From positions 1 to 48,002 of the IMG/VR virus record IMGVR_UViG_3300047322_000488: 48,002 bases of DNA, one strand, 5' to 3'. Position numbers and translations under genes: made by a program. Positions 40,091 through 45,747 of the stretch are shown in pieces (the stretch's first letter is position 1; each line of letters opens with the position of its first letter). The notes beneath the pieces are model-generated. The model saw only the letters and a list, made by a program, of their open reading frames with translations. It was not told the DNA's origin and did not search any database. This DNA comes from a virus.

Positions 40091-40305
40091 CGCAAGAACA
40101 GCGCGCTGCCGAGACCCAATGCTGGCATGCAGAACTCGCTGCGCGGTTTGATAAGCGTCGCTGCCGCTGCGGCGCACAGGCCGTCGTGGTGATCCCCGGC
40201 ACTGAAGCGGTGCGCGAGGTTGGCATCGTGCTGAAGCGCGCCAAACCAGATCGGAATTTATGCATGTTCCATGCAGGGCTGATGAGCAATGAGAGGGCGG
40301 CATGA
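40087..40305 (+). CDS. Small Cys/His-containing protein
   Basis: The 72-residue protein contains ETQCWHAELAARFDKRRCRC, a middle VVVIPGTEAVREVGIVLKR and DRNLCMFHAGLMS near the end. The Cys and His residues (CW, CRC, LCMFH) may bind a metal. It overlaps genes on both sides by ATGA. No family is recognised. Confidence 0.6.
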   Translation: MTQEQRAAETQCWHAELAARFDKRRCRCGAQAVVVIPGTEAVREVGIVLKRAKPDRNLCMFHAGLMSNERAA

Positions 40306-41258
40306 CAGTCCAAGGTCAAAGCGTGAGTACGATCGACAAGGTGCGTCGCATCGGCTCGGCTTTGTCTGTAAATATGTTGATAGCGTCACGTCCGCGCTTT
40401 GAAGGAAAAGGCTACAGCTATTGGCATTTCGATGCCAACGCGGGATCTGGCTTCAACGCTGCAGTTGGCGTCCCCGGCAGTCCGGTGGTGTTTTGGGATG
40501 CGGCTGACAAATGCCTGCGCGGTCTGCATCCGAGACCGTTCTTCTGCGACATCAATGACGGCTATATGGCCACACTGCAGCGCACCTTGGGCACTCGTGC
40601 TCGCTCATCAGTACTGCTTCCTGGCGACAATGAAGAAGCGCTTCTGCTTTTTGGGTTCCACATCCTGCGATCAGGGGAGAAGGCGAGCAAAGCCATGGGC
40701 TCGGTCCTATGCGACCCTAACGCATATTGGTATCGCAATAAGGACAACGAGGGCGTCCCGATCAGGGCGCTTCAATGGTTTCTGCCGAAGTTCGAGAGCA
40801 TCGACTTAGTGCTCAATGTGAATACCAGAACCTACCGGATGCAGGCTCCGCACGGGCACAACGTGCTGCCGCCCAGAATGTTGCTGGCATCTCTGCACAA
40901 GAAACACTGGGTAGTCGGGCACACCTCTCACGGTGGCGACACATTCCTGATTGCCATCGGACGCAACTATCCAGCCGGCGATCACCGCGCGCTCGGCCTA
41001 TATAATTCAACCAGCGAAATGGGGAACCACATTCTCGATGTCGCAGAGGGACGACGGCAGAGCAAGCTCGAATTCGCCATACCAAACGTATCGCGAATAC
41101 CTAGATCATCCAGTGTTTCGCACGGCTCGCGCGATAGCGATGCGAAGGGCCAAAGGGCTCTGCGCATGCGGCAATCCGGCGACCGAAGTCCATCATCTGA
41201 AATACCCGCCGTGGGGCATGTTCGATGTGCCCAGCAACCTGAAGCCGATCTGTCATGA
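40302..41258 (+). CDS. tcmP: TcmP-like three-Cys-motif partner protein
   Basis: The 318-residue frame has YWHFDANAGSGFN followed by VPGSPVVFWDAA, then PFFCDINDGYM, and SVLLPGDNEEALL. This matches the N-terminal pattern of TcmP proteins, which regularly accompany the three-Cys radical-SAM-like phage protein, and such a gene lies just downstream. The Rossmann-like opening (G-x-G then GSP) suggests nucleotide or SAM binding. From about residue 247 on, the frame overlaps the HNH gene and looks non-native (Ser/Arg-rich), so the true C-terminus may be lost or extended by that overlap. Confidence 0.6.
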   Translation: MTVQGQSVSTIDKVRRIGSALSVNMLIASRPRFEGKGYSYWHFDANAGSGFNAAVGVPGSPVVFWDAADKCLRGLHPRPFFCDINDGYMATLQRTLGTRARSSVLLPGDNEEALLLFGFHILRSGEKASKAMGSVLCDPNAYWYRNKDNEGVPIRALQWFLPKFESIDLVLNVNTRTYRMQAPHGHNVLPPRMLLASLHKKHWVVGHTSHGGDTFLIAIGRNYPAGDHRALGLYNSTSEMGNHILDVAEGRRQSKLEFAIPNVSRIPRSSSVSHGSRDSDAKGQRALRMRQSGDRSPSSEIPAVGHVRCAQQPEADLS

Positions 41259-41292
41259 CTGTCACTGCATAGCGCATGGAAAAACATCATGA
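41038..41292 (+). CDS. HNH endonuclease, first of three
   Basis: The 84-residue protein from ATG 41038 (GGGGAA upstream) has YREYLDHPVFRTARAIAM, a zinc pair CACGN, then TEVHHLKYPPWGMFD and NLKPICHDCHCIAHG. The H-H and C-x-x-C pattern is the HNH metal finger. It starts inside the TcmP-like frame and overlaps it by 221 bases. It may be a homing-type insertion or a normal phage gene. Its stop overlaps the following start. Confidence 0.75.
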   Translation: MSQRDDGRASSNSPYQTYREYLDHPVFRTARAIAMRRAKGLCACGNPATEVHHLKYPPWGMFDVPSNLKPICHDCHCIAHGKTS

Positions 41293-42731
41293 CTGACTAT
41301 CAGCAGCACCCACTGTCGGCGGCATTCCCTGCGATGACAGACGCAGCATTCGCAGAGTTGCGTGCCGACATTGTTGCGAACGGACTGCGCTCACCGATCA
41401 CGTTGTTCGATGAGCAAGTCTTGGATGGTTGGAGCCGTTATCGGGCATGCAGCCAAGCTGGTGTCGAACCCCGGTTCGAGACGTTTGGCGGCGATGAAGC
41501 GGCAGCGCGGAAGTTCGTCGTCTCGGCCAACCTGATCAGGCGGCATCTCGATACGTCAGAGCGGGCGATAGTCGCTGCGCGATTTGCGACCATGCCAGCC
41601 CACAGGCCGGGTAAGGGGGCAAATTCGCCCACTTCCATCCAACAGGCAGCCGACCTCTTTAATGTCAGCACCAGATCCGTCAAAGACGCGCGCGCTGTCC
41701 TAACGAGTGGCGACGACGAGGTTATCGGTCAGGTGGGAGACGGCAAGATCTCTGTGTCCCATGCAGCAAAGACCGTGCGGGCGAACAAGCCAAAGCCCGC
41801 ACCGACCAAGAAGGCACAACCGAAGGCTAAGGCTAAGCCAGTCAACATTGAGCCCCAGACGGTGGAGCAGTGGGCAAACCTATCGGCCAGCCTGCAGCGG
41901 GCTCACCTCAAACATCGCAACCCGGAGGCGAAGCTCAACCAGCAGAAGAGCGGCGAGGATGACAACCTCATCGACTGGGCCAAGTGGACATGGAACCCGA
42001 TCACAGGGTGTCTCCACAATTGCCCATATTGCTATGCGCGAGACATCGCCGAGCGGTTCGCAGGCACATCGCCATTCCCGAATGGCTTCACGCCAACACT
42101 ACGCGCCGACCGGCTGTCCGCACCGCTCAACTTCCTGCCGCGCGAAAGCGAAGACCAGCGTGAGCGGCGCATCTTCACCGGATCGATGACAGACCTATTC
42201 GGACGTTGGGTGCCAGCCGAATGGATCGAAGCCGTGCTGCGTGTCGCAGACGAAGCGAAGCTGTGGGAATTCCTGATGCTGACGAAGTTCCCCAAGCGCA
42301 TGGCCGAGTTCGAGATCCCAGCCAATGTCTGGATGGGCACAACTGTCGACTGCCAGGTGCGTGTCACTGCTGCGGAGGAGGCGTTCGCGCGCGTAACCGC
42401 CAAGGTGAAATGGCTCTCATGCGAACCGCTGATCGAGCCACTGCGTTTCCGTCACCTCGACCGGTTCGACATGATAGTGATCGGTGGCGCATCGCCATCC
42501 AGCGAAACCCCGAAGTGGATCCCGCCTTTCTCCTGGCTCGACGATCTCATGCGCCAAGCCGACGACGCCGGGTGCGCCGTGTTCCTCAAGTCGAATATGT
42601 ATAGAAAAGAACAACCCGGTGGACCTCGCTATCGGTTCCTCGATAAGGCGCCGAAGGTGTTCCACTATCTGACGCGCAGCGGCGACCGCCGTGATGCAGC
42701 GAATGAGCTGGCTGTGGCGGGTGCCGCATGA
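41289..42731 (+). CDS. ParB-like domain fused to three-Cys radical-SAM-like protein
   Basis: The 480-residue protein has an N-terminal ParB-like part: HPLSAAFPAM, LRADIVANGLRSPITLFDEQ, VLDGWSRYRACSQAG, then an HTH region (SIQQAADLFNVSTRSVKDAR) to about 160. A Lys/Pro/Ala linker at 165-190 follows. The second part begins DWAKWTWNPITGCLHNCPYC (C241, C245, C248, spacing CX3CX2C) and has TGSMTDLFGRWVP and IVIGGASPSSET, as in phage Gp37/Gp68 proteins (DUF5131). The cysteine spacing equals that of radical-SAM clusters. The reaction is unknown. It probably works with the TcmP-like partner. Confidence 0.85.
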   Translation: MTDYQQHPLSAAFPAMTDAAFAELRADIVANGLRSPITLFDEQVLDGWSRYRACSQAGVEPRFETFGGDEAAARKFVVSANLIRRHLDTSERAIVAARFATMPAHRPGKGANSPTSIQQAADLFNVSTRSVKDARAVLTSGDDEVIGQVGDGKISVSHAAKTVRANKPKPAPTKKAQPKAKAKPVNIEPQTVEQWANLSASLQRAHLKHRNPEAKLNQQKSGEDDNLIDWAKWTWNPITGCLHNCPYCYARDIAERFAGTSPFPNGFTPTLRADRLSAPLNFLPRESEDQRERRIFTGSMTDLFGRWVPAEWIEAVLRVADEAKLWEFLMLTKFPKRMAEFEIPANVWMGTTVDCQVRVTAAEEAFARVTAKVKWLSCEPLIEPLRFRHLDRFDMIVIGGASPSSETPKWIPPFSWLDDLMRQADDAGCAVFLKSNMYRKEQPGGPRYRFLDKAPKVFHYLTRSGDRRDAANELAVAGAA

Positions 42732-45105: not shown

Positions 45106-45280
45106 TGGCGCATTTAATGGCGCAAAAACCTGGCGAAAAAGCCCGGCGGAGGGTGCTGTTGCGCCATTTCTGCCTAACGGCAGGAGAATGGCGCACCATC
45201 CCCTAACCCGGAGCCGTTTATCGGCGCACTTATTGGCGCATTTTATCGGCGCAATGGCGCATCACGGCGGCGTGAAATGA
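45026..45280 (+). CDS. Small hypothetical protein overlapping iterons
   Basis: ATG 45026 has a strong site (AAGGAGAG) upstream, and the 84-residue frame runs through the iteron region to overlap the next start by ATGA. Sequence features: MTPPSAKTGSVWRSTMPCAQ, NGAFNGAKTWRKSP, then a His-rich end. The repeats shape much of the middle. It may be a real small protein, or a frame kept open by chance between the helicase and HNH genes. Confidence 0.4.
   Translation: MTPPSAKTGSVWRSTMPCAQAPPQLVNGAFNGAKTWRKSPAEGAVAPFLPNGRRMAHHPLTRSRLSAHLLAHFIGAMAHHGGVK
45104..45261. repeat. Iteron cluster, probable replication origin
   Basis: TGGCGCA occurs as direct copies at 45106, 45118, 45189, 45234 and 45255, as an inverted copy at 45160-45166, and as CGGCGCA at 45222 and 45247. 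A degenerate TGGCGAA is at 45131. Most are preceded by an A/T-rich pair, giving the form WWYGGCGCA. AT-rich spacers (TTTAA, TTTTAT) lie between some copies. Position just after the RepA-like gene supports an origin. Confidence 0.75.
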
Positions 45281-45747
45281 CCTCTCGGATGCGGTTGGCA
45301 TACGAGGACTATCTGCGCTCCCCACGATGGAGAGACGTCAGGCATCAGGCTCTCATTCGTGCCCAGTGGCGATGCCAGAGCCCAGCTTGTCCGGACGATG
45401 CGGTTCGGTGGCTAACCGACGCTGAGATCGCCGGCCTGGACGTGCCATATCGTCTGGAAGTCCACCACCTGACCTATGAGCGGTTGGGCTGGGAGCAACC
45501 CGACGATTTGTTAGTGCTCTGCGAGCGGTGTCATGCCGTGCTGCACGGCCGGCAACCCCCGAAGAACCGAAGCGGTCTTGGGCCGCGGCACCTTTCCAGG
45601 GTCCAACTGATCGCCGCTTATCGACGTGCAACCGCCGATAATCTCAACGCGCGCACGGCGGCCGCCGCCGCGGCACGATTGAACTTGCTCACTGCAGGTG
45701 ATCCGCTGCCGAACGGCCGTAAGCGCGTCCCGGTGCTGGTGAAATGA
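45277..45747 (+). CDS. HNH endonuclease, second of three
   Basis: The 156-residue protein has YLRSPRWRDVRHQALIRAQW with two Cys (RCQSPACPDD), YRLEVHHLTYERLGWEQPDD and LLVLCERCHAVLHGRQ. The VHH motif with two CxxC pairs is a classic HNH finger. The helical C-terminus has LIAAYRRATADNL. It is coupled by ATGA overlaps to both neighbours. Such genes in replication regions may be homing enzymes or recombination nucleases. Confidence 0.85.
   Translation: MTSRMRLAYEDYLRSPRWRDVRHQALIRAQWRCQSPACPDDAVRWLTDAEIAGLDVPYRLEVHHLTYERLGWEQPDDLLVLCERCHAVLHGRQPPKNRSGLGPRHLSRVQLIAAYRRATADNLNARTAAAAAARLNLLTAGDPLPNGRKRVPVLVK

Follow-up and report, generated by a model that had tools for sequence, protein, structure and literature searches.

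A phage gene cassette pairing a TcmP-like protein with a ParB/HTH-DUF5131 fusion is a candidate nucleic-acid modification system

What might a phage do with a protein that joins a ParB-like module to a radical S-adenosylmethionine (radical-SAM)-type domain, encoded beside a putative methyltransferase? The question is raised by IMG/VR virus record IMGVR_UViG_3300047322_000488, whose 48,002 bp (positions 1 to 48,002) form the window analyzed here. On the plus strand, a TcmP-like gene (40302-41258) is followed by a small HNH gene and by a gene fusing a ParB-like and helix-turn-helix (HTH) module to DUF5131 (41289-42731). A first-pass annotation, made from the letters alone, had proposed a DNA-modification, nucleotide-based or anti-defense system, and nucleic-acid modification stands as the leading idea; the findings speak neither for nor against anti-defense. 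Our preferred, still tentative reading, to which we give somewhat less than an even chance, is a phage modification cassette in which the ParB/HTH module would bring a methyltransferase and radical-SAM pair to phage DNA, where the pair would make a modified base.

The radical-SAM-type part is the DUF5131 half of the 480-residue fusion protein. PF07505 (DUF5131) matches residues 228-435 (41970-42593) with 138.9 bits (gathering cut-off 28.9; E 2.6e-40), and the cluster motif C241-LHN-C245-PY-C248, followed by Y249, lies at 42009-42032; the annotated coordinates and cysteine positions were exact. All three cysteines and Y249 are invariant in 43 of 43 aligned homologues, and these are the only invariant cysteines in the family alignment. 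The AlphaFold model of the fusion (predicted local distance difference test, pLDDT, 89.9) contains a predicted radical-SAM-type barrel. Its best radical-SAM matches in Foldseek are spore photoproduct lyase (SPL; 4fhc, probability 1.00, E 4e-3) and then RlmN (0.99), at a modest template modeling score of 0.40 by target, with the fusion aligned whole. The radical-SAM model TIGR04471 scores 2e-15, below its curated cut-off, the Pfam Radical_SAM model PF04055 gives 16.9 bits against a cut-off of 29.5, and a PDB sequence search with DUF5131 returned no match. The invariant CX3CX2C motif and the two nearest solved folds bear out the radical-SAM-type domain that the annotation had suspected from cysteine spacing.

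Comparison with SPL refines this assignment. In SPL, Y97 and Y99 flank the third cluster cysteine (PMC3742179). The fusion shares the CX3CX2C motif with tyrosine at both of these radical-path positions, Y247 and Y249, and tyrosine occupies them in 62/67 and 67/67 relatives, respectively. The hydrogen-donor cysteine of SPL (C141 in Bacillus subtilis, Bs; end of strand 2), a position we matched by strand order and motif context rather than by alignment, is Gly298 in the window protein, whereas 50 of 67 relatives have cysteine there. The window protein differs from SPL further in its methyltransferase partner and its ParB/HTH fusion. One alternative is DNA repair, in which the DUF5131 half would directly reverse ultraviolet or other thymine damage as SPL does, with the TcmP-like protein as damage-binding partner. 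The closest solved fold, both retained tyrosines and the cysteine common among relatives speak for it, but the C141A mutation abolishes SPL repair in vivo (PMC3742179) and the window has glycine at that position; repair also leaves the constant methyltransferase partner unexplained, and a ParB/HTH module points to binding at particular sites, not at lesions. We regard repair as improbable. Membership in the class A radical-SAM methylases was also considered: RlmN is the second-nearest radical-SAM fold, but RlmN/Cfr enzymes carry two additional conserved cysteines (PMC9692996) that DUF5131 proteins lack, and this assignment was rejected. Judged from the models, the DUF5131 half probably works like an SPL-type radical-SAM enzyme, yet would be neither an SPL nor a class A methylase.

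The partner protein has 318 residues. It scores only 13.2 bits against TIGR04474 (TcmP; cut-off 53), and its relatives reach 43.6. In profile-profile comparison, hhalign aligns the window protein's family with cellular TcmPs at 97.8% (E 1e-12), and an in-house TcmP profile seeded with phage proteins only converged on 113 proteins that include cellular TcmPs. The TcmP-like partner called in the first-pass annotation is thus real at the profile level, and only there, as what appears to be a distant homologue of TcmP. Its AlphaFold model (pLDDT 83) has the strand order of a class-I methyltransferase, with predicted disorder beyond residue ~257, where the gene overlaps the HNH frame. The first twelve Foldseek matches are all RlmJ, the 23S rRNA m6A2030 methyltransferase, or its homologue LPL1258 (top E 4e-8). 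Agreement comes from hhalign against Escherichia coli RlmJ (91.8%, E 7e-7) and from an independent run with cellular TcmP (90.6%, E 1e-6). A PDB sequence search with TcmP found no match, and GenBank labels one phage TcmP relative, Fairfaxidum gp43, "methyltransferase".

The putative active site can be read from the RlmJ alignment. The cofactor contacts of RlmJ are S100, E118, D143 and D164; the catalytic D164 is essential, as is K18 (PMC3814359). The four contact residues align with S60, D83, D109 and D138 of the TcmP-like protein. D138 opens motif IV (D138-P-N, 40713-40721) and is invariant in 46/46 aligned TcmP-family proteins; motif I, D44-ANAGSG (40431-40451), is the predicted SAM-binding site. 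Lys13 (40338-40340), invariant in the same 46 proteins, is a candidate motif X lysine, which the alignment sets six residues from RlmJ K18 in a register that is not settled. RlmJ remains the nearest solved fold, with aligned SAM-contact and catalytic aspartate positions; the TcmP-like protein differs in lacking the RlmJ helical insert and in having DPN for DPPY. The models and alignments point to an RlmJ-type SAM methyltransferase fold with predicted SAM-site residues.

The N-terminal half of the fusion is ParB-like. It matches ParB-type phrogs, its profile aligns with solved ParB/Noc proteins as far as the HTH and beyond the fold itself (3e-10), and Foldseek of this half of the model returns ParB/Noc/Spo0J (1e-5). 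The ParB N-terminal fold spans residues 4-105 (41298-41603), with the boxes DGWSR and SANLIRR, and an HTH region aligned to the ParB/Noc DNA-binding domain spans residues 117-166 (41637-41786). In ParB CTPases the Glu of the ENxxR motif has a catalytic role. At this position (residue 80) the window protein has Ala and its relatives mostly Ala, Ser, Asn or Lys, and a CTPase role was rejected since the Glu is not kept. The annotation had offered DNA targeting or ParB-type nucleotide hydrolysis for this part; a DNA-directed module is supported, and hydrolysis is not. The fusion thus resembles ParB/Noc/Spo0J in its N-terminal fold plus HTH, and departs from them in the missing Glu and in having DUF5131 in place of the C-terminal dimerization domain. 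Could its chief role be transcriptional or partition regulation of the ParB/HTH type, with enzymatic halves that are vestigial? The recognizable ParB/Noc fold would suit that role. Against it, the cluster cysteines and D138 do not vary even among highly diverged sequences, the catalytic domain persists where one N-terminal module has been exchanged for another, and a search for repeated parS-like palindromes across the window found none. We consider such a regulator very unlikely.

The arrangement recurs in many uncultured phages. About 67 fetched loci share a unit of a TcmP-like gene, an optional HNH gene and a CX3CX2C DUF5131 gene with a fused ParB or HTH module at its N-terminus, and dozens of divergent viral contigs keep this order, more than chance would give. 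DUF5131 turned up at 175 loci when viral and cellular contigs were scanned. The cluster spacing is CX3CX2C in 123 of 177 DUF5131 open reading frames (ORFs) and CX6CX2C in 51. The annotated spacing is thus not family-wide, the cellular TcmP partners having CX6CX2C. Three forms emerged from the survey of fused and unfused versions that the annotation had called for: a short, cellular CX6CX2C form with a TcmP neighbor in 42/51; a short CX3CX2C form lacking one in 49/49; and a CX3CX2C form with a long N-terminus, in which 66/70 viral members, plus one cellular, have a TcmP-family neighbor. The short CX3CX2C group without TcmP has both viral and cellular members (for example L061, L074, L099 and L110).

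In a phylogeny of 146 core domains, one change is enough to account for the CX3/CX6 split. The long form is close to a single clade there: the window falls in a set of 58 rows with 99% support, 55 of them long-form and 50 with TcmP. An independent-pairs test of N-terminal module against TcmP found 4 pairs, too few for significance; each either agreed in direction with the others or was undecided. The N-terminal module of the clade is ParB-like in 47/74 by an in-house profile, with further ones called ParB_N by Pfam; the remaining N-termini are DUF3102 or other HTH-like sequence. Because its type varies while the catalytic part stays, the module appears swappable.

The two protein families also appear coupled. 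A mirror-tree comparison of TcmP and DUF5131 gave r = 0.56 over 93 non-redundant pairs, a value that 0/1000 permutations reached and that shared lineage inflates; r was 0.44 for viral and 0.40 for cellular pairs alone. In a Caldilineales metagenome-assembled genome (L149:8055-9656), one ORF encodes a canonical CX6CX2C DUF5131 (residues 10-246) followed by TcmP (258-532). In the window, ATGA overlaps join the start of the TcmP-like ORF to the preceding gene, that of the fusion to the HNH stop, and that of the next ORF (42728) to the fusion stop; the genes thus appear packed for coupled translation. Co-evolution, gene coupling and the natural fusion suggest that the TcmP-like and DUF5131 proteins work as one unit. 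The annotation's pairing of TcmP with DUF5131 gains from the same evidence: conserved order, coupled starts, covariation and one single-ORF fusion. Variant architectures were also seen. L025:4945-6840 is a ParB-DUF5131 ORF with no TcmP nearby, whose start, MTVRGQSKQSYRK, is like a TcmP-like N-terminus and may be the remnant of a deleted TcmP. The TcmP at L151:8751-9839 has a C-terminal GMT-like winged HTH domain (PF22560, 28.3 bits, cut-off 27), and at L154:5883-7957 a single DUF5131 gene is preceded by two TcmP genes in tandem.

The HNH gene lies between its two neighbors, as annotated. Its ORF is open from 40951 to 41292, with a likely ATG start at 41038 (41038-41292, 84 residues) and a phrog_144 match of 6e-7. 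It shares ~220 nt with the 3' end of the TcmP-like ORF, in a separate frame. The signature T/S-E-V-H-H...YPPWGxFDxPxNL...CHxCHC...HGK is conserved. Of the phage units, 30/67 carry an HNH gene, against 0/42 cellular TcmP-DUF5131 pairs, making it a recurrent part of the phage clade only. Its position varies: L013:231-1226 carries the TcmP-like protein and HNH as a single ORF, and the HNH genes at L055:7242-7661, L057:2560-2955 and L067:6259-6558 are found downstream of the fusion, their products having an extra C-terminal Cys pair.

An HNH gene in 30 of 67 phage units also fits a restriction-modification-like system of defense or counter-defense, in which self DNA would be marked by the enzyme pair, leaving unmarked or differently marked competitor or host DNA open to attack by the HNH or a host partner. 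The cellular pair corresponds to the PADLOC candidates PDC-M41A/B and PDC-M30A/B; Type I restriction-modification and MADS genes occur among the cellular pairs' neighbors, which is only suggestive since the neighbor scan had no proper control; and a Sinorhizobium meliloti transcriptome table lists a TcmP gene with the Hna phage-defense gene SMa2245 (SMa2243/SMa2245; PMC12445080). Weighed against this, the PDCs are unvalidated guilt-by-embedding predictions (PMC12988326), the window TcmP-like protein matches no PDC model, 37/67 phage units and 42/42 cellular pairs have no HNH, and the gene sits in the phage replication/nuclease region, no obvious cargo spot. Defense seems to us rather unlikely, although a more serious contender than repair.

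How much of this was already known? The window shares with the TcmP/Gp37-Gp68 pair (TIGR04474/PF07505; PADLOC PDC-M41, PDC-M30) the same two families, adjacent and usually with TcmP first, and its DUF5131 half matches the PDC B components (PDC-M41B, 1.3e-40; PDC-M30B, 5.9e-38). It differs in that the A components do not match the TcmP-like protein, which falls below every curated model, in CX3CX2C rather than CX6CX2C spacing, and in the added ParB/HTH module (~225 residues) and HNH gene. Among INPHARED records, 140 match the fusion; none covers 80%, and among the matches listed all lie in the DUF5131 half. A search of a library of 5.39 million papers, with few subscription articles or preprints among them, returned no functional work on either family, no paper naming "DUF5131", TcmP by its full name in passing mentions only, and no earlier description of the RlmJ and SPL assignments. 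The bare TcmP-DUF5131 pair is thus already catalogued, and the ParB-fused, HNH-associated CX3CX2C phage clade appears to be undescribed.

These observations suggest a mechanism for the proposed modification cassette. The ParB-fold/HTH module would dock the fusion protein on DNA. There the TcmP-like subunit, as a predicted RlmJ-type SAM-dependent methyltransferase, would present a base, methylate it, or both, probably at an amino nitrogen, and the DUF5131 domain, as a predicted SPL-type [4Fe-4S] radical-SAM enzyme, would react at a C-H position of that base through a 5'-deoxyadenosyl radical. The small HNH may be an accessory, either nicking or cutting DNA or simply binding to it. The outcome would be a non-standard base in the phage's own DNA during replication, probably for nuclease evasion or genome marking.

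Several points weigh against the modification cassette. Motif IV (DPNA in the window) has no equivalent of the aromatic residue of DPPY, hhalign of DUF5131 against SPL aligns the cluster motif alone (20 columns, 41%), the window has Gly298 at the hydrogen-donor position, and the role of the ParB half might be confined to regulation of the operon. Moreover, RlmJ and RlmN, the closest solved catalytic folds outside SPL, act on 23S rRNA adenosines, and therefore the target could be RNA: the pair would then modify tRNA or rRNA early in infection and alter host translation. The two extra cysteines of RlmN/Cfr are missing, however, and DNA is favored over RNA because the N-terminal modules are of DNA-binding types (ParB_N, HTH, DUF3102) and the neighbors of phage units include helicases, DNA methyltransferases, replication initiators and resolvases. 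We think an RNA target has only a small chance of being correct.

Within the modification reading, a more specific proposal is possible but doubtful: an undescribed two-step nucleobase modification in which a ParB-type module would hold an RlmJ-type methyltransferase and a radical-SAM enzyme of SPL type on DNA, the two enzymes producing a new hypermodified base, such as an elaborated methyl-adenine, with the cellular TcmP-DUF5131 pairs performing the same chemistry under other targeting. If right, phage DNA modification would gain a radical route. The TcmP and DUF5131 families occur widely among bacteria, archaea and phages, and the RlmJ-type and SPL-type assignments turn an uncharacterized pair into testable chemistry on a base.

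The surrounding genome carries terminase, major head protein, portal and tape measure genes and belongs to a tailed phage. The nearest isolate terminases to its own, at ~53% identity, come from Agrobacterium and Roseibium phages. A VRR-NUC gene lies upstream of the cassette and an AAA_25 ATPase gene downstream. A second HNH protein, of 156 residues, is encoded at 45277-45747, ~2.5 kb downstream of the fusion, and among the head genes the product of 8179-8985 matches a phrog labeled alpha-2,3-sialyltransferase (1.1e-39).

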